The notes under the pieces: model-generated
Database searches by the model: none
Told to the model about the DNA's origin: nothing
What the model saw: only the letters and a program-made list of their open reading frames with translations
In this document: in pieces, positions 28,624-50,450 of the stretch
Numbering within the stretch: the first letter of the stretch is position 1
Layout: each line of letters opens with the position of its first letter
Source of the DNA: Nevskia sp.
GTDB taxonomy: Bacteria; Pseudomonadota; Gammaproteobacteria; Nevskiales; Nevskiaceae
Length of the DNA: 54,863 nucleotides
Assembly: GCA_028291705.1 (NCBI GenBank)
Contig: JAQGNS010000167.1
Coordinates: 1-54,863, forward strand
Direction of reading: 5' to 3'
Made by a program: the position numbers and the translations under genes

Positions 28624-29787
28624 TCAATGAAAGTGCTTATGCGAATGGCTGGCTCCATGCCCGTGCTCATGCGGGTGCACATGCAGAGCCGGATCGCCGC
28701 CATAACGCTTTTCGACACGTCCGAATTTCCACATGGCCACGGAAACGCCCCAGGCCAGCAGGAACAGGCCGACGATGGCGTACCCCAGTTCGCCGAAATC
28801 CAGCCCGCCGATGAAATCGAACAGCGGCCCCTTCAGGTCCAGCATGCCGATGAAGACCTGCAGCAGCTCCACCGTGCCGATCAGCAGCGCTACCGCGATG
28901 GACAGGCTGGTGGTGGTGAGGTTGTAGAAGATCTTGCGTAGCGGATTGACGAAAGCCCAGTTGTAGGCCTTGACCATCAGCACGCCGTCGGTGGTGTCCA
29001 TCAAGGACATGCCGGCGGCGAACAGCACCGGCAGCGACAGGGCGGCCGGCACCGGCAGGTTGCCAACCGAAGCGCCGGCGGTCATGCCGAGCAGGCCGAC
29101 TTCGCTGGCAGTATCGAAGCCCAGGCCGAACAGCAGGCCCAGCGGATACATCTGCCAGCTATGGTTGATGACCTTCTGCAATCTGCCGCCGAACAGGCGG
29201 TTGATCAGGCCGCGTTGGGACAGCAGCTCTTCCAGGTGGGCATGGCTGTGCTTGCCGGTCTTGGCCTTCTGCCAGACCTTGAGGATGTCCAGCAGCAGCA
29301 ACAGGTTTAGGACGCCGATGATCCACAGGAAGGTGCCGGACACGCCGGCGCCGATGATGCCGCCAAGGTTGCGCAGTTCCGGCAGGTCGCGCTTGACCGC
29401 CGCGGCGGCGAAGACGATGGCCACCGATAGCAGCAGTACGATGGTCGAATGGCCCAGCGAGAAATAGAAGCCGACGCCGAGAGGGTTGCGCCCCTTCTGC
29501 ATCAGGTAGCGCACGGTGTCGTCCACCGCCGCGATATGGTCGGCGTCGAAGGCGTGACGCAGGCCGAACATGTAAGCCGCCAGGCCCAGGCCGACCAGAG
29601 CGGGATAATGGGCGGAATAGTGCAGAAATACCCCCACACCCAGGAGGTGCAGGAAAGCCACGACACCGTAGAGCCGAACCAGCTCGCGCCATTCGTCACG
29701 GCTGAAGCTCAGCCGCCGCGCCGGCGCAGCCGGAGCGACATAGTCGAAGGAAGCCGGCAGGCTCCGGGTGGCGGGACGCGCGCTCAT
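28624..29787 (-). CDS. NiCoT-family nickel/cobalt permease
   Basis: The 387-residue inner-membrane protein shows the NiCoT signatures RHAFDADHI (77-85), LGHSTIV (111-117), LGFDTASEVGLL and GMSLMDTTDG, with about eight hydrophobic segments. The C-terminal tail is His-rich (HVHPHEHGHG... to the end), probably for metal binding. The start codon shares one base with the upstream stop (TGATG), so it is coupled to the His-tailed small protein at 29787-30194. The permease takes up Ni2+ (or Co2+) using the proton gradient. Linkage to nikR and a TonB receptor favours nickel. No urease or hydrogenase genes are in the window. Confidence 0.92.
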   Translation of the reverse strand: MSARPATRSLPASFDYVAPAAPARRLSFSRDEWRELVRLYGVVAFLHLLGVGVFLHYSAHYPALVGLGLAAYMFGLRHAFDADHIAAVDDTVRYLMQKGRNPLGVGFYFSLGHSTIVLLLSVAIVFAAAAVKRDLPELRNLGGIIGAGVSGTFLWIIGVLNLLLLLDILKVWQKAKTGKHSHAHLEELLSQRGLINRLFGGRLQKVINHSWQMYPLGLLFGLGFDTASEVGLLGMTAGASVGNLPVPAALSLPVLFAAGMSLMDTTDGVLMVKAYNWAFVNPLRKIFYNLTTTSLSIAVALLIGTVELLQVFIGMLDLKGPLFDFIGGLDFGELGYAIVGLFLLAWGVSVAMWKFGRVEKRYGGDPALHVHPHEHGHGASHSHKHFH

Positions 29788-30297: not shown

Positions 30298-30855
30298 TCA
30301 GTAGTCGCAGTTCTCGAGCTGCTCGAACCAGTCGAAGCCCATGGCCTTGACGATGCGGCTGTTCATCACCACGATGCGCGCCTCACCGGGGCCGGTGCTG
30401 AAGTGCTGGTGCGCGCAGTACGGCGGGATGTAGACGAAGTCGCCCACGGTCCACTCGAACTTCTTCGGCTCCTTCTCCCATTCGAATTCGATGGTGTCGG
30501 CGCAGTCGAACTTGACGTCCCAGTGCAGGTCGTAGCCGCTGCCTTCCACCACATAGAACACTTCCTCGGAAAGGTGGCGATGCTTGCCGCTCTTCTTGCC
30601 GGAGGGGATGAAGTGCATGTAGATGTCGAGGCACATCTCCTTGGTGTTCATCTGCTCGTGGATGATGTGCTTGAGCAGGCCGTCCGGAGACCGCTCCAGC
30701 GGCATTTCCGACGACTTCACCACGTTCATGTAGCCGTCGTATTCCTTGCGGAAGGCTTCCGACTGCTTCACCGCCTCGCTGTAGAAATTCACATACTCGA
30801 CCTCGGCGTGGGCGCGATCGCGCTCCTTCGGGTCGATGATCCGCTCGATTCCCAT
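30298..30855 (-). CDS. Single-domain cupin, putative metal-dependent dioxygenase or isomerase
   Basis: The 185-residue protein contains a cupin with first motif GKHRHLSEEVFYVVEG (H92, H94, E98) and second motif IPPYCAHQHF (H149, H151), so a complete 3-His/1-Glu metal site is visible. ATG 30855 has AGAGGA upstream. It is the last gene of the tctABC-cupin-cupin series and precedes a strong terminator. Cupins of this size include ring-cleaving dioxygenases, isomerases and decarboxylases, and sequence alone does not decide. Neighbours suggest action on a transported carboxylate in the cytoplasm. It differs from the next cupin, which lacks the Glu ligand. Confidence 0.8.
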   Translation of the reverse strand: MGIERIIDPKERDRAHAEVEYVNFYSEAVKQSEAFRKEYDGYMNVVKSSEMPLERSPDGLLKHIIHEQMNTKEMCLDIYMHFIPSGKKSGKHRHLSEEVFYVVEGSGYDLHWDVKFDCADTIEFEWEKEPKKFEWTVGDFVYIPPYCAHQHFSTGPGEARIVVMNSRIVKAMGFDWFEQLENCDY

Positions 30856-30898: not shown

Positions 30899-31477
30899 TC
30901 ACAGTTCCGGCGGCGGCGCGTAGTTTTCCTGGCCGGGGGAGGCTTCCGTCGGCGGATAGCTCACCACCTTCTGGAAGATCATGTGCATGAACAGGAACAG
31001 CGGCTTGGCCTTCATGATCAGCACGATGCACTCGCCGTCCTTGTCGTCGCTAAAATGCTGGTGGACGCAACCGTTCTCGACGATCAGCGCGTCGCCGGCA
31101 TCCCAGTCGTGGCGCTTGGTATCGTGCACGTCGTGGCCCTTGCCCTTGAGGACGTAGAACACGGCGCTGTTCATGTGGCCGTGCTTCTGGCCGTAGCCGC
31201 CCGGCGCGTAGACGTCGATGTGGCATTCGATCGACTGCGCCACCTTGACCGCCTGCGGGTTGATGATCTTCTTGCCGAAATTCTGCGGGCCGCCTTTCCA
31301 CTTCCAGTCCTTGGTGTGGTACACGCGCGGCTGGTTGAACAGCTCTTCCTTCAGCTGGCCGTAGGTGCCTTCCAGGGCGCGCACGAAGACGCGCTTCTTG
31401 GTCCAGCGCTCCCACTCGGCCGGCGCGGCCGTCTCGCCGTGCGCGACGGGTGTATCGATCTGCTCTCCACTAGCCAT
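30899..31477 (-). CDS. Single-domain cupin with a 3-His site
   Basis: This 192-residue cupin has KHGHMNSAVFYVLKGKG (H99, H101) and VENGCVHQHF (H139, H141). The usual Glu of motif 1 is replaced (A105), leaving a three-histidine site like that of gentisate 1,2-dioxygenase or acetylacetone dioxygenase. AAGGAGG lies just before ATG 31477. It sits 43 bases upstream of the other cupin and 85 bases after tctC, so the two cupins may be subunits or consecutive enzymes. A ring- or C-C-cleaving oxygenase role is plausible but not proven. Confidence 0.8.
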   Translation of the reverse strand: MASGEQIDTPVAHGETAAPAEWERWTKKRVFVRALEGTYGQLKEELFNQPRVYHTKDWKWKGGPQNFGKKIINPQAVKVAQSIECHIDVYAPGGYGQKHGHMNSAVFYVLKGKGHDVHDTKRHDWDAGDALIVENGCVHQHFSDDKDGECIVLIMKAKPLFLFMHMIFQKVVSYPPTEASPGQENYAPPPEL

Positions 31478-33147: not shown

Positions 33148-33160
33148 TCGATTCACCCGG

Positions 33161-34705: not shown

Positions 34706-35239
34706 TTCAGAGGCTCCCACCGGATAGTCGGAAATCGGCTGCGGCGCGGGTCATCGTTCCATCGATGGGGCTAGCAGCATCACGGGGCTTCGAGGCCCGC
34801 GGCATTGCGGCCGCGGAACGGTATTGCCCGGACATGACCGGGGCGATCCGCCGCCGGAATAGGTACATCTGCGTTTCCATGCTCCTCCACATTCTCAACG
34901 TGTGCTCCTCACGTCCACTTTTTATTGTTCTTTTATACGGAACGTGTTTCCTGTATAGTGAACCGACTGTAGCGATGTTGATCGGACACGTCAAGCACGA
35001 ATTTCTTGCTGCGAATGCACATTGGCATGGGCCTTGGCTCGTCTCGTCAAAAGCCGACATCAGGCCTTCACCGAACCGTCTCGGAGCTGTCATTTTCCGA
35101 ACGGTGCCTGGCGAATCGAGAGGCGCAAAAGCGCACGAACCCGCGCCGGCATTGATGGAAAATCACCACGGGTAGCGTGGGGCCGCCCGTCTACGCGCCC
35201 TCGGAATGTGGTGCGGCCACCATCACCAGCGCGTCCGCC
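34706..35239. other. Leader and promoter region of the tct-cupin operon
   Basis: 534 bases. It holds the conserved promoter/operator at 34927-34994. Downstream of it on the minus strand, a 61-codon open frame starts at ATG 34892 (MWRSMETQMYLF...) and ends in TGA at 34707, one base before the tctA GTG. The frame has GAGGAG upstream but an unremarkable composition, so it may be a leader peptide or chance. Beyond 35000 I see nothing assignable. Confidence 0.5.
34927..34994 (-). promoter_or_regulatory. Sigma-70 promoter with tandem palindromic operators (tct operon)
   Basis: On the minus strand: TTGACG (34994-34989), 17 bases, TACAGT (34971-34966), 2 bases, then two 17-bp elements separated by 3 bases. 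On the plus strand these read GTTCTTTTATACGGAAC (34927-34943) and TTTCCTGTATAGTGAAC (34947-34963). The expected start site falls inside the operator, which suits repression. The same layout recurs at 44763-44830. The GGAAC/TTTCC core resembles IclR-family sites; the regulator is not identified. Confidence 0.75.
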
Positions 35240-35758: not shown

Positions 35759-35764
35759 GCGCCC

Positions 35765-37320: not shown

Positions 37321-38358
<1,038 letters not shown>

Positions 38359-38383: not shown

Positions 38384-39493
38384 CTACTTCCACGGCAGCA
38401 GCGACACGTGGATCACATCCTTGGCGCCTTCGTTGCCGACCGACTTGATCGCGTACTCAGCCTCGGCCAGCCCGAAGGTGTGCGTCGTCACCAGCTCCAG
38501 CGGGAAGCGGTGCGAGGCGAGCTGCTGCAGCGCCAGCTCGCAGGAGTGGTAGCTGTGGCCGCGAGCGCACTTGATGGTGATGTACTTCACCGTGATCTTG
38601 CCGATGGGGAAGTTCGGGAAGTCGGTCATCTCGCCCTGGATCAGCAGCGTGCCGCCCTTGCGCTTGAGGGCCTCGACGCCCAGCATCACCGGGATGGTGC
38701 CGGCGCCGGCCGTGCAGTCCAGCGACACGTCCACGCCTTCGCCGCCGGTGATGTCCATGATGCGGGCCAGCGGATCTTCCTTCTGCACGTCGATGACATA
38801 GTCGGCGCCGAGCACCTTGGCGATTTCGAGACGCTTGGCGTCCTTGGTGGTACCCGTGACGATGATAAGGTTCGCTCCGGCCTGCTTGCAGGCCACGATC
38901 TGCGACAGGCCCTGCTGGCCCGGCCCCTGAATCAGCACCTTCGAGGCATAGCCGACCTGCGAATCGAACAGCGCCCACTCGATGCCGTTGGACAGCGGCG
39001 TGACGATGCCCGCCAGTTCCGGCGTGACCCCGGCCGGCACCTTGTGCACCACCGCATTCCACGGCAGGTAGGTGTACTGGGCGAAGCCGCCCCACAGGTG
39101 ATAGGGATTGTCCGAGGTGGTGTAGCCGTAGCGGCGGCCATTCGGGTTGGAGCGCCAGTCGGTGGCGCTGCAATGGCGGTACTCGCCCTTGTGGCACCAC
39201 TCGCACTTGAAGCAGGGCACGTAGTGCTCGACGAACACCAGGTCGCCTTCCTTCACGCCCTTGCGCTCGCAGAATTTGCGCCCGGCCTTGGCGATGTAGC
39301 CGATGTTCTCGTGGCCCATGATCACCGGGCCGCCGGTGGCCAGCGGCTGCTTGAACATCTTGACGTCGGTGCCGCAGATGCCGGCCACCTCCATCCTCAT
39401 CAGCGCGCTTTCCTCGTCGATCTCCGGCATCGGGAATTCACGCATCTCGAGCTTGCTCGGGCCGATCTTCACGGAAGCCAATACTTTTTCCAC
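38384..39493 (-). CDS. Zinc-dependent MDR-family alcohol dehydrogenase
   Basis: The 369-residue enzyme begins at GTG 39493 with AAGGAG six bases upstream. It has the catalytic zinc motif AGICGTDVKMF and GHENIGYI, a structural zinc lobe (CFKCEWCHKGEYRHC) and a Rossmann segment (VLIQGPGQQGLSQIVACK). It oxidises a hydroxyl to a carbonyl, or the reverse, using NAD(P). It follows the HpcH/HpaI aldolase by 37 bases and precedes cobW. In this context it may oxidise a dihydrodiol, hydroxyacid or aldehyde intermediate. Substrate unknown. Confidence 0.9.
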   Translation of the reverse strand: MEKVLASVKIGPSKLEMREFPMPEIDEESALMRMEVAGICGTDVKMFKQPLATGGPVIMGHENIGYIAKAGRKFCERKGVKEGDLVFVEHYVPCFKCEWCHKGEYRHCSATDWRSNPNGRRYGYTTSDNPYHLWGGFAQYTYLPWNAVVHKVPAGVTPELAGIVTPLSNGIEWALFDSQVGYASKVLIQGPGQQGLSQIVACKQAGANLIIVTGTTKDAKRLEIAKVLGADYVIDVQKEDPLARIMDITGGEGVDVSLDCTAGAGTIPVMLGVEALKRKGGTLLIQGEMTDFPNFPIGKITVKYITIKCARGHSYHSCELALQQLASHRFPLELVTTHTFGLAEAEYAIKSVGNEGAKDVIHVSLLPWK

Positions 39494-39530
39494 GGACAAC
39501 TCCTTCAAATGGGTTGGGGCGGCGCGGCGA

Positions 39531-40394
39531 TCAGCCGCGGCCGGCAAGGCCGCGCGCGGCGCGGAGGTTGGCGAAGCTGCGCGGCGCGGCGCACATCAGG
39601 TAGCGGTAGCCTTCGGCCATGACGCGCTCGGCGTTTTCCGGCGTCACATGCGGATGGCCGACGATGACCCCGCGCTGCTTGCAGATCGACACGATCTCGG
39701 CCATCGCGTCGAGCACCACCTTGTGCTCGGTCTGGCGCGGATAGCCCAGTTCCTGGCTCAGGTCGCCCTCGCCGATCAGGATCGCGCCAATGCCCGGCAC
39801 GTTATCGAGGATGTCCGGCAGGTTGCGGATGCCCAGGGTGTCTTCGATCTGCAGCACCACCAGGATCTCGCCGTTCGGCGCCAGCGGCCAGACGTCGGCC
39901 CGCTCGTAATATTCCTGCTGTGATACACCCCAGTAGCGCGTCGCCTGCATCGGTCCGTCGCCGCGGATGCCGGCCGGCTCGTACAGCGGCTTGTCGGACA
40001 ACCGCTGGTAGCGGCAAGACGCAACGGCGTTGTACGCCTCTTCAACCGTGCTGATATGCGGCCAGACGATGCCGTAGCAGCCCAGGTCCAACGCCTGCTT
40101 GGCCAGAAACTGATTCATCTCGGCGCCATTGGCGGGAATGCGCGCGGTCGGGGTCACCGCCGGGGCCAGCGAGTTCGCGCCGGCGATCTGCTTGCGGTTG
40201 AGCAGGTACTGCAGGCTGTCGCGCAGCGCCTTGATGTCCCAGCCGCGGTGCTCGCCCTCGAACACCACGCCGTCGTACTGCGACTGCTGCAACTCCACCG
40301 CGTACTCGATCTCGCAGGGCGCGAACAGCGTGAACGAGTGCTGGCCGGACTCCAGCGCGCGGATGATGCCGTTGAGGCGTTCAGGCTTGGACAT
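39531..40394 (-). CDS. HpcH/HpaI-family aldolase
   Basis: The 287-residue protein has the HpcH/HpaI barrel pattern: VVFEGEHRGWDIKAL, LVVLQIEDTLGIRNL and GAILIGEGDLSQELGYP, where the Glu of QIED and the Asp of GEGD are the usual metal ligands. Class II aldolases of this family split or form 4-hydroxy-2-oxoacids, typically releasing pyruvate. It is somewhat longer than the common 250-270 residues. GAAGGA precedes ATG 40394. The position between ChrA genes and a dehydrogenase suggests a late carbon-splitting step in the pathway. Confidence 0.87.
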   Translation of the reverse strand: MSKPERLNGIIRALESGQHSFTLFAPCEIEYAVELQQSQYDGVVFEGEHRGWDIKALRDSLQYLLNRKQIAGANSLAPAVTPTARIPANGAEMNQFLAKQALDLGCYGIVWPHISTVEEAYNAVASCRYQRLSDKPLYEPAGIRGDGPMQATRYWGVSQQEYYERADVWPLAPNGEILVVLQIEDTLGIRNLPDILDNVPGIGAILIGEGDLSQELGYPRQTEHKVVLDAMAEIVSICKQRGVIVGHPHVTPENAERVMAEGYRYLMCAAPRSFANLRAARGLAGRG

Positions 40395-40429: not shown

Positions 40430-40978
40430 TCAGGCCGCCAGGGGATGAAACAGGGCGAATATGACCAGATAGACAGCCGCGACCGCGCCGACCGTGCCGT
40501 AGGTGCTGATCTTGGTGGTGCTCTGCAGCACGCAGACCACCGCGGTGGTGACCAGCGCCAATATCCCGGCGTGGGCCGAACTCAGCACGATCACCGCACC
40601 GGCGAAAATGAGGCCCACCGCCACCGGCGCCAGGCCGCGTTCGATCGCCTTGCGCACTGGCGACTTCTCGTTGCGCTGCCACCAGGCGCTGGCCAGGTAC
40701 ATGATGATCGAGGACGGCACGAACACCGCGATGGTGGCCACCACCGCGCCGAGGAAGCCGGACACCTGCCAGCCGATCAGCGCTACGATCAGCGTGCTCG
40801 GTCCCGGCGCCGCGCGCGAGATGGCGAACATGTCGGCGAACTGCTGATCGGTGAGCCAATGGTGCACCGCCACCACCTGGTGCTGGATTTCCGGAATGGT
40901 GGCCTGGCCGCCGCCGAAGGACAGCACCGATACCGGCGAGAACACCAGCATCAGCAACAGCAGTCGGCTAAGGTTCAT
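40430..40978 (-). CDS. ChrA-family half-transporter (short CHR protein), pair 2
   Basis: The 182-residue membrane protein starts at ATG 40978 (MNLSRLLLLM) with AGAGGAAG upstream, overlapping the partner gene by 11 bases. Its CHR motif is VLSFGGGQATIPEIQHQVV and AISRAAPGPSTLIVALIGW, closely like the 35240-35758 protein. It forms a two-gene CHR transporter with 40968-41591. It lies inside the eutA-bicupin-aldolase operon, which argues for a substrate linked to that pathway rather than general chromate resistance. Confidence 0.88.
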   Translation of the reverse strand: MNLSRLLLLMLVFSPVSVLSFGGGQATIPEIQHQVVAVHHWLTDQQFADMFAISRAAPGPSTLIVALIGWQVSGFLGAVVATIAVFVPSSIIMYLASAWWQRNEKSPVRKAIERGLAPVAVGLIFAGAVIVLSSAHAGILALVTTAVVCVLQSTTKISTYGTVGAVAAVYLVIFALFHPLAA

Positions 40979-41591
40979 GGCGCAGCTTCCTCTTCTCGTG
41001 CACATACGCCAGCGCGATGCTGAGCGGCACCGCCACCACCACCACCGGCACCATCGGCCAGTGCAGCACACCGACGACGACGAACACGGTGACCGCGATC
41101 AGCGGCGTCAGCAGGTCCCGCGGCAGGCGCCGCGCCACGCGCACACCCATGGTCAGCGTGGCGCCGACACCGGCGGCGGCGAGGCCCAGCAGGACGAAAT
41201 GCACAGCGCCCAGGTGGCCGTAGCTCCGATAGAAAAAACCGAGCAGCATGATCATGCAGAACGCCGGCACGATCATGCCCAGCACCGCCACCGCAGCCCC
41301 GACAGCGCCGCGCAACTGCAGACCGACATAGAGCGCAATGTTGACCGGGTTGGCCCCGGGCAGCACCTGCGCCACCGTCAGCCCCGACAGGAACGACTTG
41401 TTGTCGAGCCAGCCGAGCCGGTCCACCACCTCGCGATGCACCCAGGCCTGCACGCTGCCGCCGAAGGTCATCAAGCCGAGGCGCACGAAGGTGCGCAACA
41501 GCAGCAGCAACCCGACCCTGGGCGGCTGCGCCGGCTCCGCCGACAGCGGCACCGTAACGACCGCCTCTATCACTTCATTGCTATTGGGCAT
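40968..41591 (-). CDS. ChrA-family half-transporter (short CHR protein), pair 2 partner
   Basis: The 207-residue protein begins at ATG 41591 with AGGAGG eight bases upstream. The first 28 residues are cytoplasmic, then the CHR domain follows: VRLGLMTFGGSVQAWVHREVV and TVAQVLPGANPVNIALYVGLQLRG. About five transmembrane segments are visible. It overlaps the next gene by 11 bases, as expected of an obligate pair. It lies 113 bases after the bicupin gene. Confidence 0.88.
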   Translation of the reverse strand: MPNSNEVIEAVVTVPLSAEPAQPPRVGLLLLLRTFVRLGLMTFGGSVQAWVHREVVDRLGWLDNKSFLSGLTVAQVLPGANPVNIALYVGLQLRGAVGAAVAVLGMIVPAFCMIMLLGFFYRSYGHLGAVHFVLLGLAAAGVGATLTMGVRVARRLPRDLLTPLIAVTVFVVVGVLHWPMVPVVVVAVPLSIALAYVHEKRKLRHEP

Positions 41592-41704
41592 CACCCGCTC
41601 CTCCTCTCAGGTACCGACGATGCACGCGAGACCGGCGGCTCGCGTCCGGCAATGTCCCCACCGTGGAGGCCTTGCCTGGACGCGGCACGCTCTATGGCTT
41701 CCGC

Positions 41705-42832
41705 TCAGGCCGCGGCGTGGCGCGGCGGCGGCAGGTCGGCCAACTCGGCCTTGTAGGCCTCTTCCATGCGCGGCGTCATGTCGTGCTTGGCCAGCGCCTC
41801 GGTGAACAGCTGGCGCACCAGCGGCTTTTCGTCGGCGTAGTCGATCTGATCGCCGCCGATGCGCTGACTGATCCAGGCCTTGGGCACGCCCTGCGCGTTG
41901 CGGATCGAAACCACTTCGTGCTTGAACGCCAGGTAACGGCCCGGCGTGGTGCCGGTATTGAAATGCTGGTGGAACCAGAGATTAGGCGGCACCACCATGC
42001 TGCCTTCCTGCCACTCGTAGCGCTTCGGTTCCTCGCCTTCCGGCCACATCAGGGTGTAGCCCTCGCCGCTCATCACGATCACGTGCGCGCCGGGACCATG
42101 GCAATGCGCCTTCTTGTACGTCGCCACCGGGAACTGCGAGATGTGGCTGTTCATCGAGCCCTTGGCCATGTTGAAGCGGATATGGCCACCGCCGGCGCCG
42201 CGTTCCTTGGCGCTGATCAGCGGCAGGTTGATCGCGTCGGCGACGAAGTTGGTATCCAGCAGCAGGCCCTTCTGCTCGCCCTTGTTGGCGAAATAGTCGG
42301 GCTCACCCGAGAAGCGCTTCTTGAAGTCGTACTCGGTGTTGAAGACGAAGTCGAGATCGTCATACAGGTTGAGCACGGACGGGCCGTTGGTGACGGCGAC
42401 ATAGCGCGCCGGCGCACTGCCCTGGCCATTGAAGTGCTGGTGCCAGCAGTTGATCGGAATGGCGAACAGCGAACCCTTGTTCCATTCGAAGGTGATGCGG
42501 CTGCCGGCGTCGTTCCACACCGTGGTGGAACCGCGGCCGTCCAGCACGTAGATCATTTCTTCGAACAGCTGGCGCTGCGGGGCCAGCTTGCCGCCAGCGG
42601 GAATTTCGCAGACGTAGCAGTCGTTGGAGGTGCGCGAGGCTTCGTGGTTGATGTACACGCCGTTGCCGCCGCGGCGCGCCCACGGCTTCAGCTCCACCGT
42701 ATGCAGGTTCTTGATGTAATGGGCGCTGATGATCTCCAGCCCTTCATTGCGCACCCAGTTCGTATACGGAGATTCCTTTTCCGTGGCGAACTTCTTTGCC
42801 ATTTCGTCCGAAACGATCGCGTCCTTCGTCAT
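41705..42832 (-). CDS. Bicupin protein with a degenerate first cupin
   Basis: The 375-residue protein carries two cupin domains. In cupin 1 the HxH pair is replaced by glutamines (PQRQLFEEMIYVL, Q86, Q88), although E92 and WHQHF (H131, H133) remain. Cupin 2 keeps AHCHGPGAHVIVMSGEGY (H243, H245, H250) and WFHQHF (H288, H290), so it is the likely metal site. This two-domain layout resembles gentisate 1,2-dioxygenase and its relatives. GAGGA precedes ATG 42832, 19 bases after the eutA-like stop. A ring-cleaving or C-C-cleaving oxygenase is the favoured guess; an isomerase is possible. Confidence 0.8.
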   Translation of the reverse strand: MTKDAIVSDEMAKKFATEKESPYTNWVRNEGLEIISAHYIKNLHTVELKPWARRGGNGVYINHEASRTSNDCYVCEIPAGGKLAPQRQLFEEMIYVLDGRGSTTVWNDAGSRITFEWNKGSLFAIPINCWHQHFNGQGSAPARYVAVTNGPSVLNLYDDLDFVFNTEYDFKKRFSGEPDYFANKGEQKGLLLDTNFVADAINLPLISAKERGAGGGHIRFNMAKGSMNSHISQFPVATYKKAHCHGPGAHVIVMSGEGYTLMWPEGEEPKRYEWQEGSMVVPPNLWFHQHFNTGTTPGRYLAFKHEVVSIRNAQGVPKAWISQRIGGDQIDYADEKPLVRQLFTEALAKHDMTPRMEEAYKAELADLPPPRHAAA

Positions 42833-42851: not shown

Positions 42852-44612
42852 TTAGCGCGGACCCGGTTGCGGTCCGTGATCATGGTGATGGTGATGCGGG
42901 TGGCCATCGCCGTGATCATGGCTGTGATCGTGGCTATGGCCGTGATGGTGGGTGTGTTCATGCGGGCCATGCGCGTGCGGCGCGGCCGGCGGAATCTTCT
43001 GGGTTTGCAGCGAGACGTCGTCGAATACCAGCGACTTGATCGTTACCGGCACCGTATGCGAAGGCAGGCGGATACGGCCCAGGTCGATGTAGTCGAAATC
43101 CAGCAGCACCACGCCGTCGATCACCAGGATCTCGGACTGGACGTGGAAATCCTCGTGCAGCACGCCGCCCAGCGTCTGCGCCAGGTCGCCGTCGAGGATC
43201 AGGTACAGCGGCTGCTTGCGCGCGATGCTCAGCGGCAGGCCGTCGACGATGCCCTGCGCGAACGCCGCTACCCGCTCGTAAGACGGCTCGCCGCGCCACT
43301 GGAAAGCCAGGGCGAACTCGCGATCCTCGGCCGACAGGTCGAATAGTGCCAGGTGCCGCTGGATCGAAGCGGCCACCGCCGCCGGATCGATCGCCTGCGG
43401 CAACTCGCAGGCGGGCTTCACCACCTGCAGGTTGCGCCGCGGCAGCAGGGCGCCGTTGTTGGAGATGTAGATGGTGTTGCCGGTAAGCTGCACCGAATAC
43501 TCGGAGGCGCCCAGCGCCGTGGCGCGGATGCATTCCTTCGCCGGCAGCAGCGGCCAGGGCAGCGCCCCGGCTTCGAGCTTGCGGCGCAGGGCATGGCCCA
43601 GGCGCCGGCCGAGGTCGCCGAAATCGCGCGCTTCCCGGTCGTAGAGGTATTCGGCGACACCGCCGGAGAACATGACCCCGGCTATGCCGGACAGATCGGC
43701 CAGCCGCCCGGTCAGATACAGCTCGCCGATCTGCGCGGGAAGATCACCTTGGCGTACGGCCACCAGCACCGCGTCCGCCATCGACTCGGCCAACACGTCG
43801 AGATCCGCCGGATCGATCGTATCGCCCAGTGACCAGGAGAACCCTGCCATCGCCGCCAGGCGTTTGCCGGCGGGATCGAGACGGGTGATGCGCCCCGCAT
43901 CGTCGACCACCTGCAAGCGACCACCGACATGGAATGCTGCGGTGGATACGACCCGCCCGCATTCGATCACCGCGAGCTTGGTGGTGCCGCCGCCAATGTC
44001 GATATTGAGCAGCCGCTGGCCCTCGTCGGCCGACACGCGCGAGGCACCGGAGCCGAAGGCGGCCAGCATGGCCTCCATGTGATGGCCGGCGGTAGCGCAG
44101 ACAAAGTCGCCGCCCCGCTCCGCCACGATGCCGGCGATGGCCTCGGCGTTTTCACGCCGCAGCGCTTCGCCGGTAAGGATCACGGCGCCGGTGTCGATCT
44201 GCTCCGGGCCCATGCCGGCGAGGTGATAGGCCTGGTCGATGATTCCGCCAAGCGCACGCTGGTCGATGCGCTCTTCACTCTCGTACGGCGTCAAGGCCAC
44301 CGGCGACTGGAACAGGGTCTCGCGCGACACCACGAAATAATGGCTGGACAGGTCTTCGCCGAGACGGCGTAGGTTGACCCGCGAGAAGATGACCTGGGTG
44401 CCGGAAGAGCCGATGTCGATGCCGACGCTGGTCAGGGAGACATGGTCCTGCATCCAGATCGGATTCTCTTCGAGCGGACCCAGGGTATCGAAATCATCGT
44501 GATCGTGGTCGTACTCGCCACCCGGCTCATGGGCATGCATCAGGTCGCGCCCGAGCGCGTGATCCTGCAGCGCATGGGCGCCGCCTTCGGCCGGCTTCTT
44601 CTCACCGATCAT
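42852..44612 (-). CDS. EutA-like reactivase with His-rich N- and C-termini
   Basis: The protein is 586 residues (467 in E. coli EutA). The extra length is an N-terminal extension of about 60 residues with a His/Asp patch (26-39) and a long His-rich tail (about 552-586). The core is an actin/Hsp70-type ATPase: VGIDIGSSGTQVIFSR near 63-78, VILTGEALRRENA, LLNIDIGGGTTKLAVIE, MFSGGVAEYLYD and late VPVTIKSLVFDD, all close to EutA. EutA reactivates B12-dependent ethanolamine ammonia-lyase (EutBC), but no eutBC is present. It is the first gene of the cupin-aldolase operon. ATG 44612 is used; GTG 44624 is an alternative and neither has a strong ribosome site. Confidence 0.82.
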   Translation of the reverse strand: MIGEKKPAEGGAHALQDHALGRDLMHAHEPGGEYDHDHDDFDTLGPLEENPIWMQDHVSLTSVGIDIGSSGTQVIFSRVNLRRLGEDLSSHYFVVSRETLFQSPVALTPYESEERIDQRALGGIIDQAYHLAGMGPEQIDTGAVILTGEALRRENAEAIAGIVAERGGDFVCATAGHHMEAMLAAFGSGASRVSADEGQRLLNIDIGGGTTKLAVIECGRVVSTAAFHVGGRLQVVDDAGRITRLDPAGKRLAAMAGFSWSLGDTIDPADLDVLAESMADAVLVAVRQGDLPAQIGELYLTGRLADLSGIAGVMFSGGVAEYLYDREARDFGDLGRRLGHALRRKLEAGALPWPLLPAKECIRATALGASEYSVQLTGNTIYISNNGALLPRRNLQVVKPACELPQAIDPAAVAASIQRHLALFDLSAEDREFALAFQWRGEPSYERVAAFAQGIVDGLPLSIARKQPLYLILDGDLAQTLGGVLHEDFHVQSEILVIDGVVLLDFDYIDLGRIRLPSHTVPVTIKSLVFDDVSLQTQKIPPAAPHAHGPHEHTHHHGHSHDHSHDHGDGHPHHHHHDHGPQPGPR

Positions 44613-44991
44613 GGCAGGAACCACCGCAGGATTTGACCTGCCGCGATGTAAGTTTCCCGTAAGACAACGTAGACGACTCCTCCCTAATGACTGGGCATCG
44701 CACGCTCGGCCTGGGCCGCGCCGCGTTTGACTGAATGCACCGTCCCGGTTTCATTTTTTGATGTTCCTTTATATGGAACACATTTCCTATATACAGAACA
44801 CACCTTAACAAGCTGCCGATGGAGTGTCAATCGAACCATCAGGCTTACAGCATTCATACATCGCCATAACCGTACTGGGCATTCCCGTTCCGCCAATGCT
44901 GTTCCGCCATGGGGAAAACTGCATTCCTGCCCGGTCCGCGGAAAGGTATGCGCTGCCCGCAAACCGGCCTACCGCGGCGGCATTTCGGAAG
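44613..44991. other. Leader and promoter region of the eutA-like operon
   Basis: 379 bases. It holds the conserved promoter/operator at 44763-44830 and a leader of about 180 bases before the eutA-like gene. A GGGAGGAG sequence near 44678 is followed only by a short out-of-frame open stretch overlapping the eutA-like start. From 44831 to 44991, downstream of the LigJ-type gene, I see no terminator or gene. Confidence 0.5.
44763..44830 (-). promoter_or_regulatory. Sigma-70 promoter with tandem palindromic operators (eutA-like operon)
   Basis: On the minus strand: TTGACA (44830-44825), 17 bases, TAAGGT (44807-44802), 2 bases, then two 17-bp elements. On the plus strand these read GTTCCTTTATATGGAAC (44763-44779), ACA, and TTTCCTATATACAGAAC (44783-44799). 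Spacing is identical to 34927-34994, and the sequence match continues some ten bases to the left. The operator covers the expected start site, as for a repressor. An IclR-type regulator would fit; none is encoded here. Confidence 0.75.
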
Positions 44992-46020
44992 CTAGGCCTC
45001 TGCACGCTTTGTCAGCAGCGCATCGAGCCTGGGATAGACCCGGCGCGCGTTGGCCTCGAAAATCTTATGGCGGTTTTCGGCGCTCAGGCCGGTGACTTGG
45101 TCGATGTAGCGCTTGGTGTCGTCGAAGGCATGCCCGGTCTCCGGATCGATGCCCGGCACCGCGCCCAGCATTTCCGAGGCGAACAGGATGTTGTCGATCG
45201 GCACCACGCTGGTCAGCAGCTCGATGCCCGGCAGGTGATAGACGCAGGTATCGAAGTACACATTGTTCATCACGTGCTCGAGCAGGTTCTTCTTCTTGAT
45301 GCTCAGGCTCAGGCCGCGGTAGCGGCCCCAGTGATAGGGCACCGCGCCGCCGCCGTGCGGAATCACCAGGCGCAGCGTCGGGAAGTCACGGAACAGGTCG
45401 CCCTGGATGAACTGCATGAAGGCCGCGGTATCGGCGTTGATGTAGTGCGCGCCGGTATGGTGGAAATTGGGATTGCAGCAGGACGAGACGTGGATCATCG
45501 CCGGCACGTCCAGCTCGCACAGCTTCTCGTAGACCGGATACCAGTAGCGGTCGGTCAGCGGCGGATCGGTCCAGTAGCCGCCGGTCGGATCGGGATTGAG
45601 ATTGACGCCGACGAAGCCGAGCTCGTTCACCACCCGCTCCAGCTCGGGCAGGCAGTTCTTCGGCGACACGCCGGGGAACTGCGGCAACTGGCCGACGCCG
45701 GCGAAATTGTCCGGCAGCAAGGTGCAGATGCGGTGGATCAGGTCATTCGACACCATCGCCCACTGCTTGCTCACCACCTCGGTGCCGACGTGGTGCGCCA
45801 TGCCGGCAGCGCGCGGTGACAGTACGGTCAGCGTGCTACCGCGCTCGGCCTGCAACTTGAGCTGCGGCTGCACGCTCTTGATCAGCATCTCGTCGCTGAT
45901 GCCCAGATCGGTCGAAGCCGGCTTGCGCGCCGGATCGGCCAGGCCGGCCAGCTGCTTGTCGCGAAACTGGTGCAGCACCGCCGGTTCGGTGGTGTAGTGG
46001 CAATGTGCGTCGATGATCAT
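44992..46020 (-). CDS. ligJ: LigJ-type 4-oxalomesaconate hydratase (amidohydrolase fold)
   Basis: The 342-residue protein is very like Sphingobium LigJ (341 residues) in length and motifs: MIIDAHCHYT (H6, H8), LGFVGVNLNPDPTGG, AMIHVSSCCNP (H177), IPHGGGAVPYHWGR (H222) and ILFASEMLGAV (E283). These residues are the expected zinc ligands. LigJ hydrates 4-oxalomesaconate in the 4,5-cleavage route of protocatechuate and gallate. The start ATG overlaps the upstream TGA as ATGA. It is the last gene of the block beginning with the Rieske ferredoxin. Other family members decarboxylate, so a sister reaction is possible. Confidence 0.82.
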   Translation of the reverse strand: MIIDAHCHYTTEPAVLHQFRDKQLAGLADPARKPASTDLGISDEMLIKSVQPQLKLQAERGSTLTVLSPRAAGMAHHVGTEVVSKQWAMVSNDLIHRICTLLPDNFAGVGQLPQFPGVSPKNCLPELERVVNELGFVGVNLNPDPTGGYWTDPPLTDRYWYPVYEKLCELDVPAMIHVSSCCNPNFHHTGAHYINADTAAFMQFIQGDLFRDFPTLRLVIPHGGGAVPYHWGRYRGLSLSIKKKNLLEHVMNNVYFDTCVYHLPGIELLTSVVPIDNILFASEMLGAVPGIDPETGHAFDDTKRYIDQVTGLSAENRHKIFEANARRVYPRLDALLTKRAEA

Positions 46021-46898
46021 GGTGCGGCTGCATCCTGGTTCGTTGAGGGGCTCGCCGCGGCGAGGAACTGCAGCAGCCGGGCGCTGGTGCGCTCCTCGGT
46101 CTGCTCGGCCACGGCGACATCCCAGTACTCCGCGCGTGGCAGGCACTCTTCGAGGTAGCGCGCGGCGGAGGTGGCATGCGAAGCATCATGCCCGGGCAGG
46201 ATCAGGGCCGGGATGTCTAGGCTCAGCAGGTCCTCCGGCTCCGCGCCCGGTGCGGTATCGCGGTCGAACAGGCGGCGCTGCATGCCGACCACCGTGAGCT
46301 TGTAGCGCTCCACGTCCAGCGCGGCATAAGCCTTGGCGAAGGCGGGATCGGTGCGCAACACCGAAGCCCAGGGGCCGCCGCGGGGATCGGCACCGAAGGG
46401 CTTCCCGCTCTCCTGCACCAGCGCCACCACCTTCTCCAACCCGTTCTGCTGCACGAACGCCAAGTGCTCGGCGAAGCGCTGATGGCTGCTCAAGCGGTAG
46501 CGGGCGCCGCCCACCGGCCAGTACAACACCATGCTCAGCACCCGCTGCGGGTGGGCCACGCCGAAGGCCAGCACCGGCGAGCAACCCATGCAGCCGCCCA
46601 TCAGGTGCGCCCGCTCGATGCCTAGGTGATCGAGCAGCCCCCTGCCCTGGGCGACGAAATGCTCCCAGCCGATATGTTCGACGCGGCCGCCGGACTGCCC
46701 GGTTTCACGCCGGTCGAAGATGATGCAGGTATAGCTGCGGCTGAGGTGCTCGAGCGGCTTGGTCCGCGCGTAGGCGCCGAGCGTCGACCAGGTTTCCAGC
46801 GTGGCGTTGAAGCCGCCGGGCGAGAACATCAGCAGCGGCGGACCGGAGCCGAGAACCTCGTAGCGGGTCTGGATACCGTCGATGGATACGATGGGCAT
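46017..46898 (-). CDS. Alpha/beta hydrolase with Cys at the nucleophile position
   Basis: The 293-residue protein has the alpha/beta-hydrolase pattern: LLMFSPGGF (oxyanion region), CIIFDRRETGQSGG and the nucleophile elbow GGCMG, where C103 replaces the usual serine. A late acid/His segment (LILPGHDASH) supplies the likely triad. A cysteine nucleophile is known in dienelactone hydrolase, so it may still act as a thiol hydrolase on a lactone or ester. GAGGAG precedes ATG 46898. Its stop overlaps the ligJ start. It probably hydrolyses a ring-cleavage product or lactone in this pathway. Confidence 0.85.
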   Translation of the reverse strand: MPIVSIDGIQTRYEVLGSGPPLLMFSPGGFNATLETWSTLGAYARTKPLEHLSRSYTCIIFDRRETGQSGGRVEHIGWEHFVAQGRGLLDHLGIERAHLMGGCMGCSPVLAFGVAHPQRVLSMVLYWPVGGARYRLSSHQRFAEHLAFVQQNGLEKVVALVQESGKPFGADPRGGPWASVLRTDPAFAKAYAALDVERYKLTVVGMQRRLFDRDTAPGAEPEDLLSLDIPALILPGHDASHATSAARYLEECLPRAEYWDVAVAEQTEERTSARLLQFLAAASPSTNQDAAAP

Positions 46899-46908
46899 GG
46901 CGTACTCC

Positions 46909-47751
46909 TCAGGGCGCCGGCTTGACCGGCGGAGCGCCCTTGATCTGGCGCGCGGCGCGTACATCCGCCGCGTAGGCGCCGATCGCATCGAGCGCGATGC
47001 GGGCGACGTTGGCGTAGCTCTCGACCTGCGAATCGATCGAACTCGCCGCATAGCCGATGGCGGCATGGGCCATGCGCACCCGCCCGTCCAGCCAGGGGCC
47101 GCCGCCGAAACCGCCGAGCACCGGGATGCGCACCGCCTGCGCCACCGCGGGCCCGGCCACCGGTCCGGAGTTGGTGAAATCGAGCAGTGAGGCCCCAGCT
47201 GCTTCCAGCCGCTTCGCCTCCCCGATCAGCCGCGCCGTCATCTCCGGCGGCACCTGCGCGCCGGGCGCCGAGGCCGCGGCGTAGGGGATGCCGTACTGCA
47301 GAGCCGTCTGCGGCGTGATGCCGAACTGCGCGAACACCGGAATACCGGCCCGCACCAGCGCCTGCACCGCCTCGGGGAAATCGGCCGCGCCATCGAGCTT
47401 GATCATGTCGGCGCCCGCTTCCTTGACCAGCCGGATTGCGGCGCGCACTGCGGAGTCGGTGCCTTCCTGCAGCGGACCATAGGGGAAATCGCAGCTCAGC
47501 AGTGCGCGCTTCACACCGCGCCGCACCGCCTTGCACACCACCAGCATCTCCTCCATGGTGATTTCCAGCGGGTTGGCGTGGCCCCACAGATTGACGCCAA
47601 CCGTGTCACCGACCGAGACGATGTCCACCCCGGCGCGATCCACGATCTGCGCCATCTGGTAATCCCAGGCCACCACGCCGACGATCTTGCGGCCGTCGGC
47701 CTTCATCTGCTGCAGTGCGGGGATGGTCACCGCGGTACTGTCTGGCTTCAT
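46909..47751 (-). CDS. PanB-like (ketopantoate hydroxymethyltransferase family) enzyme
   Basis: The 280-residue barrel protein matches the PanB family: VDIVSVGDTVGVNLWGH (D49), ALLSCDFPYG (D88), GADMIKLDG and QFGITPQTA. Several PanB residues differ: KLEG becomes KLDG (D120), the GHIG histidine is absent, and the late catalytic Glu region reads GASLLDF. A role in pantothenate synthesis is therefore unlikely; a related carbon-carbon lyase or phosphoenolpyruvate-mutase-like reaction is more plausible. AAGGAG precedes ATG 47751. It sits 27 bases after the second decarboxylase-like gene and 10 before the alpha/beta hydrolase gene, clearly in the catabolic operon. Confidence 0.78.
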   Translation of the reverse strand: MKPDSTAVTIPALQQMKADGRKIVGVVAWDYQMAQIVDRAGVDIVSVGDTVGVNLWGHANPLEITMEEMLVVCKAVRRGVKRALLSCDFPYGPLQEGTDSAVRAAIRLVKEAGADMIKLDGAADFPEAVQALVRAGIPVFAQFGITPQTALQYGIPYAAASAPGAQVPPEMTARLIGEAKRLEAAGASLLDFTNSGPVAGPAVAQAVRIPVLGGFGGGPWLDGRVRMAHAAIGYAASSIDSQVESYANVARIALDAIGAYAADVRAARQIKGAPPVKPAP

Positions 47752-47778: not shown

Positions 47779-48726
47779 TCAGCCGGTCAACGCGGCGGTG
47801 CCCGGCACGAATAGTTCTTCCACAGCGCAGGGACCGGAAATGATGTGCTGCTCGACGGCATAGCCGATCAGCGCCTCCAGCATCGGCCGGTTGGCCTCGA
47901 CGCCGTAAGGCAAGGGATCCTTGCCGGTGATTTCCAGCACGCGCTGGTACATGCGGTCCGGCTTGGTCGGCGCGGCGATGCTGCCGGCGCGCAACTGCTC
48001 CAGGTAAGGCTGCTTGGCCGCGACGAAGGCTTCGAACAGGCGCGCCGGCAGTTCCGGATGGGCTCGCAGCACCTCATCCTTGACCACCAGCAGATGGTTG
48101 ATCGGGTAATGACCGTTCTGTTGCAACAGGCGTAAGCCATGTTCGGCGGCATCGGGAATCAGCGGCGCCACATCCGGATGCTCCACCTGCACGCCGATAC
48201 AGGCCGCGATTTCGCCAGCCGTCAGCAGCTGCTCCAGCGTCTTGCCCTTCTCGATGGAAACCACGTTGGACGGCGGCTGGAACTCCGCCACATGCTCGTC
48301 ACCCGACAGTACCCAGGTGATCTTGTCCAGGTCCACGCCATGCTCGTGTTGCAGGACGCTGCGCGCCCATACGCCGGTGGTCACCGTGTAGCCGCGGTTG
48401 ACGCCGACCTTCTTCCCTTCAAGATCCTTCGGGTTGCGGATGCCCAGCGCCGTGTTGTGCAGGATGGCGCCATGATGGAAGCCGCGCACCAGGAAGATCG
48501 GCAGCGCGGTGAAAGCCTTGCCATGGGCTCGCGCGCAAAGATAGGTGGTGATGGCCATCTCGCTGACCTCGAACTCCAGCCCGCGCGCCATCCGCCGGAA
48601 GGCCTGGATGATGGCCGGCACTTCCTCGAACTCCAGCGTGTAGCCCTGCGGTTTCACCGCACCGTCCTTCAGCGCCCGGGTATGTCCCAGGGTCTGCAGG
48701 GCGGCTTTCAGCTTGTGTTCTGTCAT
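47779..48726 (-). CDS. 4,5-dihydroxyphthalate-decarboxylase-like / PBP-fold protein, copy 2
   Basis: The 315-residue protein has no signal peptide and shows the Pht5/NMT1-like periplasmic-binding-protein fold: LGHTRALKDGAVKPQGYTLE, EFEVSEMAITTYLCARA, LEGKKVGVNRGYTVTTGVW and TLEQLLTAGEIAACIGV. It is a paralogue of the 50466-51458 protein but more divergent. Pht5 decarboxylates 4,5-dihydroxyphthalate in the cytoplasm; other members bind small aromatics. AGAAGGAA precedes ATG 48726. Having two copies suggests two carboxylated intermediates or a decarboxylase plus a sensor or binding protein. Confidence 0.75.
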   Translation of the reverse strand: MTEHKLKAALQTLGHTRALKDGAVKPQGYTLEFEEVPAIIQAFRRMARGLEFEVSEMAITTYLCARAHGKAFTALPIFLVRGFHHGAILHNTALGIRNPKDLEGKKVGVNRGYTVTTGVWARSVLQHEHGVDLDKITWVLSGDEHVAEFQPPSNVVSIEKGKTLEQLLTAGEIAACIGVQVEHPDVAPLIPDAAEHGLRLLQQNGHYPINHLLVVKDEVLRAHPELPARLFEAFVAAKQPYLEQLRAGSIAAPTKPDRMYQRVLEITGKDPLPYGVEANRPMLEALIGYAVEQHIISGPCAVEELFVPGTAALTG

Positions 48727-49163: not shown

Positions 49164-50450
49164 TCAGACCGAAGACTGGGCCTCGCCGGCTCGCACCGTC
49201 AGGGCATCCTTGGCGGCCTCCTTGAACAGCTGGTCCGGCGCCAGGATCACCGCGGCGGAACGCACGCGGTGATGCGCCGGATCCACGCCCGGGGGCACCT
49301 CGCCCTTGTCCGCCAACGCCTTCGCCGCCTTCATCAGGCGCATGCGCGCCATGACGATGCCGTTGTCGGTAGAGCTCAGGTTCTCCCGCGTGCGGTCGCA
49401 GATCGGGCCCATGCTTTCCTGCAGCGAAGCGTCCTGCATGCCGATGCCGTCGATACCGCTGTAGGCATGGCCGGCCTTCTGCGAGGCGCGGTCCATCAGG
49501 TAGTTGTTGCTCTTGTTGGCGAGCGGGATATAGGTGCCCGGAATGGTGGCGACGTGGATGCCCTTGCCGGCCATCATGGCGTCGCGCTCGGTCTTGCTCA
49601 GGGCGCGCACCGGGTGGTAGTCGAAGCTCCAGGCCCAGCAGCTCTCGTCGTCGATCGGGATCCAGAAGTGGCCGTGCACCGGGTGGTCGCCGCGCGGCGG
49701 CACCATGGTGAAGCAGGGCATCACCCAGGGCGTGATGCGCCAGTAGAAATTCCCGGCCTCGGCGTTGCGGCGCGCGCCGATCATCAGGCCGCCGTCGGAC
49801 GGCACCACTTCGAACACCGGCTTGGTGTCGTTGAGGTTGTACTGATTGCCCTTGGCGCCCTTGAACAGGGGATCGCTGTTGAGGTTGCCGCGATGCAGCC
49901 AGGAGACGTGGCTCGAATCGATGCCGCCTTCCATGGCCTGCAGCCAGTTGCATTCCTGCAGGCGCTTGGAGGTGTAGCTCTGCTCCGGCGGCACCAGGGA
50001 GAACTCGAACTCCGGCAGCGGCGGCTGCTTGTCGCGCGGGCCCATGTAGGTCCACAGCACGCCGCCCTGCTCCACCAGCGGATAGCCGGTAAGCTTGATG
50101 CGCGAGCAGAAACCATTCTCGGACGGTTCGGACGGCACGTCGACGCACTGGCCGGTGACGTCGTACTTCCAGCCGTGGTACGGGCAACGGATGCCGTTTT
50201 CCTCGTTGCGGCCGAACCACAGCGAGACGCCGCGGTGGGCGCAGAACTCGCTGATCAGGCCGTAACGGCCGGAACTGTCGCGGAACGCCAGCAAGCTTTC
50301 CGACAGCAGCTTCACCCGCACCGGCGGACAGTCGTTTTCCGGCAGCTCCTCCGCCAGCAAGGCCGGAATCCAGTAGCTGCGGAACATCGCGCCCATGGGG
50401 GTGGTCGGGCCGGTCTGCGTCAGCAGGTCATTCTGTTCTTTTCTAAGCAT
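49164..50450 (-). CDS. Rieske non-haem iron oxygenase, phthalate-4,5-dioxygenase-like
   Basis: The 428-residue protein has a Rieske centre (C70-x-H72 ... C89-x2-H92: FCAHRGVSLW, RCPYHGWKYD) and the catalytic mononuclear iron site EGGIDSSHVSWLH (D178, H181, H186), with a third acidic ligand probably in the IGMQDASLQES region. Length and motif positions match the phthalate 4,5-dioxygenase subfamily. It inserts oxygen into an aromatic ring using electrons from a ferredoxin and reductase, both encoded just upstream. GGAG precedes ATG 50450. The substrate is probably a carboxylated aromatic, given the linked decarboxylase-like genes and TTT transporter. The subfamily also includes O-demethylases. 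Confidence 0.9.
   Translation of the reverse strand: MLRKEQNDLLTQTGPTTPMGAMFRSYWIPALLAEELPENDCPPVRVKLLSESLLAFRDSSGRYGLISEFCAHRGVSLWFGRNEENGIRCPYHGWKYDVTGQCVDVPSEPSENGFCSRIKLTGYPLVEQGGVLWTYMGPRDKQPPLPEFEFSLVPPEQSYTSKRLQECNWLQAMEGGIDSSHVSWLHRGNLNSDPLFKGAKGNQYNLNDTKPVFEVVPSDGGLMIGARRNAEAGNFYWRITPWVMPCFTMVPPRGDHPVHGHFWIPIDDESCWAWSFDYHPVRALSKTERDAMMAGKGIHVATIPGTYIPLANKSNNYLMDRASQKAGHAYSGIDGIGMQDASLQESMGPICDRTRENLSSTDNGIVMARMRLMKAAKALADKGEVPPGVDPAHHRVRSAAVILAPDQLFKEAAKDALTVRAGEAQSSV

Follow-up and report, generated by a model that had tools for sequence, protein, structure and literature searches.

Canonical EutA is the reactivase of ethanolamine ammonia-lyase (EAL), in which it is described as swapping adenosylcobalamin (AdoCbl) for cob(II)alamin (Co(II)Cbl) (PMC9426561). 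We analyzed a contig of Nevskia sp. (JAQGNS010000167.1, assembly GCA_028291705.1; positions 1 to 54,863, hereafter the window) in which a gene for a EutA-like ATPase immediately precedes one for a two-domain cupin (bicupin). Other helper systems are comparable in part. Diol dehydratase reactivase and the HgdC/BadF-type activators are ASKHA ATPases that restore or energize metallo- or cofactor enzymes, and to our knowledge neither system includes cupin or nickel genes. HypB, UreG and CobW are G3E GTPases with His-rich regions that act as nickel or zinc chaperones; the window locus resembles them in having a His-rich NTPase in a nickel setting, with a CobW gene in the same operon, but the EutA fold is ASKHA and not G3E. 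The XylT-type ferredoxin reactivates catechol 2,3-dioxygenase and is likewise a dedicated helper of a ring-cleavage dioxygenase in an aromatic operon, although XylT is a redox protein rather than an ATPase and its client is not a cupin. What would be new here is the pairing of a reactivase-family ATPase with a new, proposed client. We give an even chance to the reading that the EutA-like protein uses ATP to reactivate the bicupin or to load it with a metal, probably nickel, in aromatic-acid catabolism. The two genes are as follows.

42852..44612, minus strand: EutA-family (ASKHA) ATPase (PF06277), with DHDHD in an N-terminal extension and a His-rich C-terminal tail
41705..42832, minus strand: bicupin (Cupin_2/Cupin_1), the proposed client, with a three-His site (H243, H245, H288) in the second cupin domain

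The EutA-like open reading frame (ORF) starts either at a GTG (42852-44624, minus strand) or at an ATG (42852-44612), the latter matching the methionine in L032, its closest relative. Its product matched Pfam PF06277 with 388 bits over profile positions 3-474 of 475, and the glycine/aspartate ATPase motifs were kept. A fold search with its structural model (predicted local distance difference test, pLDDT, 77; termini below 50) returned PilM, HgdC (1hux, the second match), MreB and PPX. These features mark the protein, on sequence grounds, as an ASKHA-type ATPase with conserved motifs; the likeness to HgdC lies in this fold, whereas family and client differ. Compared with EutA of E. coli K-12, it matches the same Pfam family over its full length and has the same ATPase motifs at 33% identity. 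It differs from canonical EutA in an N-terminal extension of about 60 residues containing DHDHD, in its His-rich tail, and in having a bicupin rather than EutBC as its partner. It also lies on a separate branch, comes from a genome without EutB, and fell below the curated cut-offs of all four NCBIfam EutA equivalog models (best 316 bits, against cut-offs of 598-952).

An earlier note on this DNA had recognized a EutA-type protein by three core motifs, all of which are present in the translation. It had described His-rich patches at both ends, which are indeed there; His-rich stretches also occur in CobW and in a nickel/cobalt transporter that the note did not list. It had also placed the gene, without eutBC in the window, at the head of an operon, and on the minus strand 3' of EutA we found just this series of a bicupin, two genes of the chromate transporter (CHR) family, an HpcH/HpaI-type aldolase, a zinc-dependent dehydrogenase and a CobW/G3E protein.

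One scan of genome contigs confirmed 125 relatives, so the window EutA is not a chance match; the best 80 of the 125 (50-76% identity) were kept as loci. Judging by the record titles, they come from Alpha-, Beta- and Gammaproteobacteria, Streptomyces and kin, Blastococcus, Mycolicibacterium and one acidobacterial metagenome-assembled genome (MAG). The window assembly comprises 614 contigs with an estimated contamination of 4.56%, a caveat that is offset by L032, an independent MAG with a nearly identical operon that retains the window gene order from ferredoxin to CobW, minus the hydratase gene. For comparison, 113 EutA sequences were assembled: that of the window, those of the loci and of sampled genomes, and four from named records (L112, L121-L123), including near-duplicate rows (L108/L169, L121/L155 and L057/L156); sampling began at the window protein, and branch sizes therefore say nothing about nature. 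The EutAs that adjoin EutB (L117, L118, L123, L171, L172 and L173) share 27-33% of residues with the window protein, in the cases measured. Seven EutB-linked rows, these six plus E. coli K-12, fell on one side of a branch with a Shimodaira-Hasegawa-like approximate likelihood ratio test (SH-aLRT) value of 96 in a quick tree whose long branches were flagged by the program. The remaining 106 rows formed clade A (more than 48% identity, 87 rows) and clade B (19 rows). The window protein thus represents a putatively bicupin-dedicated branch, separate from the sampled EutBC-linked branch.

A full-length EutA family match could also belong to an ordinary EutA serving EAL or another B12 enzyme encoded elsewhere, and EutB was in fact found in 13 of 49 searched genomes holding a close EutA relative (a search that started from 50 of the 80 loci). 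We consider this reading very improbable. EutB (PF06751) had no match anywhere in the window's own genome, estimated to be 98.94% complete, nor in 36 of those 49 genomes, EutB being the one B12 enzyme searched for; the seven sampled EutB-linked EutAs lie outside the window's branch; and an Rfam scan of the window and of 7 of the 80 loci gave no match, hence no cobalamin riboswitch. No shell proteins were seen among the Pfam-scanned window proteins, the genome-wide search having been aimed at EutB and not at microcompartment shell genes. The own genome (G000) holds one real EutA, the second match covering 44 positions inside a 429-aa ORF. A class-wide search of 369 genomes gave a EutA match at E 0.001 in 337, and among the matches listed all except G000, G145 and a G011 fragment were partial, at about 35 bits or less and mostly in ORFs of about 410-500 aa that were taken for FtsA; the partial matches were set aside.

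Linkage to the bicupin is close in the samples taken. In a first count, 84 of the 106 rows without linked EutB had a bicupin within 12 kb. A stricter count, which called for a bicupin match of more than 700 bases, left 81 rows, with the bicupin within 400 bp in 64 and on the same strand in 58 of those 64. The bicupin belonged to the same clade as its EutA in 78 of the 81 (exceptions L037, L039 and L044). The order of G388 was sampled with 297 genomes. EutA was present in eight of them (E up to 1e-15), of which G904 (28% identity) has it adjoining EutB, and the bicupin (E up to 1e-15) occurred in exactly the other seven. Copy numbers of EutA and bicupin were 3/3 in G388, 1/1 in G724, 2/2 in G838, G849 and G952, 3/3 in G933 (one EutA being a fragment) and 1/2 in G827; paralogs of the two genes arise in pairs. 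For the order of G417, 250 genomes yielded EutA (E up to 1e-20) in six. Three of these six have it linked to EutB, and the bicupin (1e-15) is confined to the remaining three, all of which have it. The chance of such co-occurrence is 2.7e-14 for the 297 genomes and 3.9e-7 for the 250, assuming independent genomes, which is not fully true. Twenty-four genomes were picked for lacking a bicupin within about 4 kb of EutA, L040 and L044 among them having one farther off, and 21 of the 24 still held a bicupin; the three without were MAGs of 2.2-3.1 Mb, and G967 and G973 held the clade-B bicupin only.

As judged from gene content, the bicupin-type EutA is therefore accompanied by this bicupin family, with very few exceptions, in the samples taken, and a partnership between the two putative gene products is strongly supported. 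As far as partnership goes, this supports well the suggestion of the earlier note of a non-B12 client such as the bicupin, and leaves its alternative of a B12 enzyme elsewhere, searched for as EutB, unsupported. Homologs were not always accompanied by EutB, and cupin linkage, far from being absent, was near absolute in the samples taken. The note had proposed scoring co-occurrence with both bicupin and CobW, for which the CobW part held only partially (16 of 113 rows within 12 kb). Its idea of metal loading gained indirect support from the nickel genes, His tails, shared palindrome and lack of urease and NiFe hydrogenase in the own genome, as set out below.

The bicupin, whose start was taken at 42832, kept H243, H245 and H288 in 41 of 42 aligned sequences, and these conserved cupin-motif His ligands place it among metal-binding cupins. 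In the second domain, a fourth His replaces the usual Glu of the motif in 34 of 35 clade-A bicupins; in domain 1 of all 35, Gln stands where the second motif His would be. A model of the protein (pLDDT 88) had MncA and oxalate decarboxylase as its nearest folds, with 11-14% identity among the matches listed, but unlike these the window bicupin has no Glu in the second-domain motif and stands in a catabolic setting. MncA is described as serving as a metal trap (PMC11742986), and the title of its structure entry states that folding location can govern binding of Mn versus Cu or Zn. The bicupin did not pass the NCBIfam gentisate/5-aminosalicylate dioxygenase model NF049978 (38 against 650 bits). 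An origin from EutQ was discarded, BLASTP against E. coli EutQ being not significant (E 0.16) and the Pfam scan returning no EutQ family.

The probable link to nickel comes from genes near EutA and from the His-rich proteins themselves, which have stretches with 19 (EutA), 12 (CobW) and 8 (transporter) His in 40 residues.

28624..29787, minus strand: HoxN/HupN/NixA nickel/cobalt transporter (NiCoT; PF03824, 301.8 bits), with a His-rich C-terminus
37321..38358, minus strand: CobW/G3E GTPase with a His-rich insert (PF02492, PF07683)

The window NiCoT scored 361 bits against TIGR00802, over the cut-off of 333, and narrowly missed the narrower NicT model NF052500 (416 against 450). Genes for NikR and NiCoT stand close to EutA in Comamonadaceae, Burkholderia/Paraburkholderia and, within clade B, Phyllobacterium zundukense, where the public annotation gives the order cupin, EutA, HoxN/NixA, nikR; the NikR_C match in L085 reached 96.8 bits. 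Counts within 12 kb were made on the 113 rows split into 60 non-actinobacterial clade-A, 19 clade-B, 27 actinobacterial and 7 EutB-linked rows, the window's own NiCoT lying more than 12 kb from EutA and so outside them. NiCoT was found in 21 rows (18, 3, 0 and 0 in these groups, respectively), NikR in 12 (10, 2, 0 and 0) and CobW in 16 (15, 1, 0 and 0). A C-terminal tail with at least six His was present in 53 of the 60, 0 of the 19, 0 of the 27 and 0 of the 7, and an N-terminal D-H-H-type motif in 57 of the 60, 0 of the 19, 26 of the 27 and 0 of the 7. These His-rich tails, together with the CHR-family transporter genes close by, would also fit an ATPase that is mainly a nickel store or detoxifier and whose pairing with the bicupin is operon history. 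We think this quite unlikely, as the pairing holds in members without His tails (actinobacteria and clade B) and across paralog duplication.

Two neighbors of NiCoT may be mentioned here. A 135-aa protein with a His-rich C-terminus and without a Pfam family (29787-30194) overlaps the start of the NiCoT gene and may be a nickel-related accessory. Directly 3' of NiCoT lies a gene for a TonB-dependent receptor (26180-28453), for which the NCBIfam haem, B12 and siderophore receptor matches were all far under cut-off; it could be an outer-membrane port for nickel.

An operator-like palindrome occurs twice in the window (GTTCCnnATAnnGGAAC). One copy precedes the EutA match by 138 bp, and the other precedes by 260 bp the match of TctA, in the unit that also holds NiCoT.

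44763..44779, unstranded: operator-like palindrome GTTCCTTTATATGGAAC, upstream of EutA
34927..34943, unstranded: second copy, one mismatch from the core, in front of the unit from TctA to NiCoT

The window and 80 loci together contained 21 exact and 47 near sites (at most 1 mismatch), distributed over 25 of the 81 sequences. None of 27 permuted control palindromes had an exact site, and their near sites averaged 1.26 (maximum 4). Forty-six of the 47 near sites lie within 700 bp 5' of a cluster gene match, the genes behind them being EutA, NiCoT (L046, L108 and L109), Rieske, Tct and ABC (ATP-binding cassette) importer, CHR, bicupin, IclR and a few other genes. Because the same palindrome stands 5' of NiCoT as of EutA, Rieske and importer genes, nickel import in the proteobacterial clusters is, to judge from these putative operators, wired to the catabolic genes. 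In the window and several proteobacterial lineages, then, the predicted ATPase shares both its cluster and its promoter palindrome with a nickel importer. IclR-like genes are present in 21 of the 80 loci, and IclR-type operators resemble such palindromes, from which we infer that an IclR protein binds it.

Importers of the ABC or Tct type are common neighbors, and at three loci EutA and an ABC permease, recognized by likeness to the L066 permease (PF00528), lie in one ORF of 1185-1335 aa, joined by a long His-rich linker.

31563-32564, minus strand: TctC of a tripartite carboxylate importer (PF03401)
32641-33207, minus strand: TctB (PF07331)
33161-34720, minus strand: TctA (PF01970)
L038:4489-6222, L049:7925-9538 and L053:9971-11647 and following: EutA part of the fused ORFs

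The fusions and the frequent adjacency suggest that the ATPase might couple the bicupin or its pathway to substrate import, and not to metal loading, by helping to assemble or gate the importer in the membrane. We hold this to be unlikely, for the importer type changes or goes unseen while the bicupin remains, and the one tested binding protein of the fused importer's type resembles ferric-binding proteins, which is also compatible with metal delivery.

The pathway around EutA and the bicupin can be read in part. Farther 5' on the minus strand are genes for a sigma-54 activator, Rieske ferredoxin, reductase, Rieske oxygenase, two NMT1/SsuA-like proteins, a PanB-like protein, an alpha/beta hydrolase and an amidohydrolase; farther 3', on the same strand, come a second CHR pair, TctABC, two single cupins, the 135-aa protein, NiCoT and then the TonB receptor. 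Labels of ORF clusters were assigned by eye, with Pfam on some representatives.

52793-53149, minus strand: Rieske ferredoxin
51475-52743, minus strand: ferredoxin reductase
49164..50450, minus strand: Rieske oxygenase alpha subunit, phthalate-dioxygenase type (9ina 487 bits, 7fhr 333 bits)
46909..47751, minus strand: PanB-like TIM-barrel enzyme
46017..46901, minus strand: alpha/beta hydrolase (PF00561)
44992..46032, minus strand: amidohydrolase of the 4-oxalomesaconate hydratase family (PDB 2gwg 505 bits, 6dwv 434 bits)
40430..41594, minus strand: CHR-family gene pair (PF02417)
39531..40394, minus strand: HpcH/HpaI-type aldolase (PF03328)
38384..39547, minus strand: zinc-dependent dehydrogenase, start uncertain (PF08240, PF00107)
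30899..31477, minus strand: single-domain cupin (Cupin_2, 40 bits)
30298..30855, minus strand: single-domain cupin (Cupin_2, 37 bits)

The closest matches of the window amidohydrolase were 4-oxalomesaconate hydratases, and hydratase matches were found in 10 of the 80 loci plus L121, L159 and L161. An RraA-family gene in the P. zundukense cluster resembles 4-carboxy-4-hydroxy-2-oxoadipate aldolases (138 bits, below cut-off). The hydratase relative, the phthalate-type Rieske oxygenase and this RraA-family gene together suggest that the cluster breaks down an aromatic acid via 4-oxalomesaconate, with the HpcH/HpaI gene as a candidate for the 4-carboxy-4-hydroxy-2-oxoadipate aldolase slot. The NMT1/SsuA-like proteins (47779-48726 and 50466-51458) we take to resemble 4,5-dihydroxyphthalate decarboxylase-type enzymes, not binding proteins; in neither was a signal peptide obvious. 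Among the scanned window genes of the region, the cupins are the sole plausible ring-opening dioxygenases, the bicupin being the first candidate; the single-domain cupin cluster is present in 38 of the 80 loci. LigB, a class III ring-cleaver, had no match on the window contig and three in the own genome, all on other contigs. Among 18 genomes it was lacking in G388 and G967 and matched somewhere in the other 15. It was set aside as the pathway's ring-cleaver, its own-genome matches lying off the window contig and G388 and G967 being without any.

With these elements, the proposed mechanism would run as follows. Rieske dioxygenation would be followed by decarboxylation, ring opening, 4-oxalomesaconate hydratase and aldolase, the bicupin serving ring opening or another oxygen-dependent step. 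Its metal would be lost or mis-filled, as intact B12 is lost by EAL. The EutA-like ATPase would then bind the bicupin and, by an ATP-driven opening, release a spent or incorrect metal and admit the correct one, the incoming metal being held by its His/Asp-rich ends and, where present, by the CobW GTPase. The metal would most likely be Ni2+, supplied through NiCoT in the window, beta-proteobacteria and Phyllobacterium, and substrate-responsive induction, probably via an IclR regulator, would switch on importer, ATPase and enzyme jointly. The metal, the bicupin chemistry and the ATP-driven step are what we infer in this scheme. A more ambitious form of it has an actin/Hsp70-fold ATPase, repurposed from B12-enzyme reactivation, inserting or exchanging nickel in a ring-opening bicupin dioxygenase, which would make it the first ASKHA metal insertase; ring opening would for the first time be seen to depend on nickel, in a route that has a regulon of its own for nickel import. 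That form is possible, and we put it forward tentatively.

Several observations weigh against a nickel-loaded bicupin in such a pathway. The 27 actinobacterial rows are without NiCoT, NikR and CobW within 12 kb and without His tail, clade B has no His tail either (0 of 19), and the palindrome is absent from the Streptomyces, Blastococcus and Mycolicibacterium loci; with actinobacterial members lacking nickel genes, tail and palindrome, we do not extend the nickel link to the whole branch. Many of the 25 palindrome-bearing sequences are related, and a terminator-like sequence was seen by eye between EutA and NiCoT in three Comamonadaceae loci. NiCoT can carry cobalt too, as the family name, nickel/cobalt, says. 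Eighteen genomes have a nickel importer in such surroundings, and ten of them carry a clear urease (at least 66 bits). Solved structures include no sequence relative of the bicupin, and L032 has no hydratase gene in the stretch seen. Distance correlation was 0.88 for EutA and bicupin, compared with 0.82 for EutA and Rieske and 0.90 for bicupin and Rieske; it was dropped as a sign of co-evolution, EutA-bicupin not being singled out over EutA-Rieske.

Some of these points would be accommodated if the ATPase acted on the bicupin as a reactivase or folding factor, the bicupin metal were other than nickel (e.g., Fe or Mn), and the importer served another member such as the single-domain cupins, or general nickel supply. 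Actinobacterial members keep the EutA-bicupin pair without nickel genes within 12 kb, the two folds closest to the bicupin model (MncA and oxalate decarboxylase) belong to manganese cupins, two single cupins sit in the window's NiCoT unit, and ten of the 18 genomes have a clear urease. Against this stand the linkage of NiCoT and NikR in both bicupin clades, the palindrome 5' of NiCoT as of EutA, and the window's own genome, in which neither urease nor NiFe hydrogenase had a match. Among the 18 genomes, G373 has a full-length hydrogenase and seven read as without urease and hydrogenase, a reading that discounts urease matches of under 30 bits spanning about 40-60 positions, of which several exceed the 23-bit cut-off. 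Many of the 18 are MAGs and possibly incomplete. A non-nickel bicupin is in our view rather doubtful, and the nickel-assisted reactivase or metal-loader remains the preferred reading.

Other features of these clusters were noted in passing. A second CHR pair lies at 35240-36448, which gives two such pairs in one aromatic-acid cluster, and the pathway palindrome precedes a CHR gene in L108; given that position, the CHR-family transporters of these clusters may carry something other than chromate. A 99-aa protein without a Pfam family (48773-49072) has similar genes in L121, L160 and L162, beside a Rieske oxygenase or dehydrogenase. A protein of about 170 aa (L069:6463-6984 and 17 further loci), whose tested member has no Pfam family, is encoded near the Rieske oxygenase in Streptomyces-type clusters. 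Elsewhere in the window, a 4273-aa open frame (11285-24106, minus strand) lies beside genes for TPR/glycosyltransferase-type proteins (4735-10085).

Searches of the open-licence literature of PubMed Central turned up no account of a module joining EutA and a bicupin, nor of EutA together with ring-hydroxylating genes or NikR together with cupin and Rieske genes. The annotation "ethanolamine ammonia-lyase reactivating factor," as seen for P. zundukense, is probably wrong for the whole branch, which spans Alpha-, Beta- and Gammaproteobacteria and Actinomycetota. If our reading is true, EutA-type reactivases need not depend on B12, and ethanolamine use predicted solely from the presence of EutA would need correction. 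Aromatic-acid degradation would then include a cupin step that requires dedicated, ATP-driven upkeep and probably nickel, and the question of how cells place the right metal in a promiscuous cupin site becomes testable.

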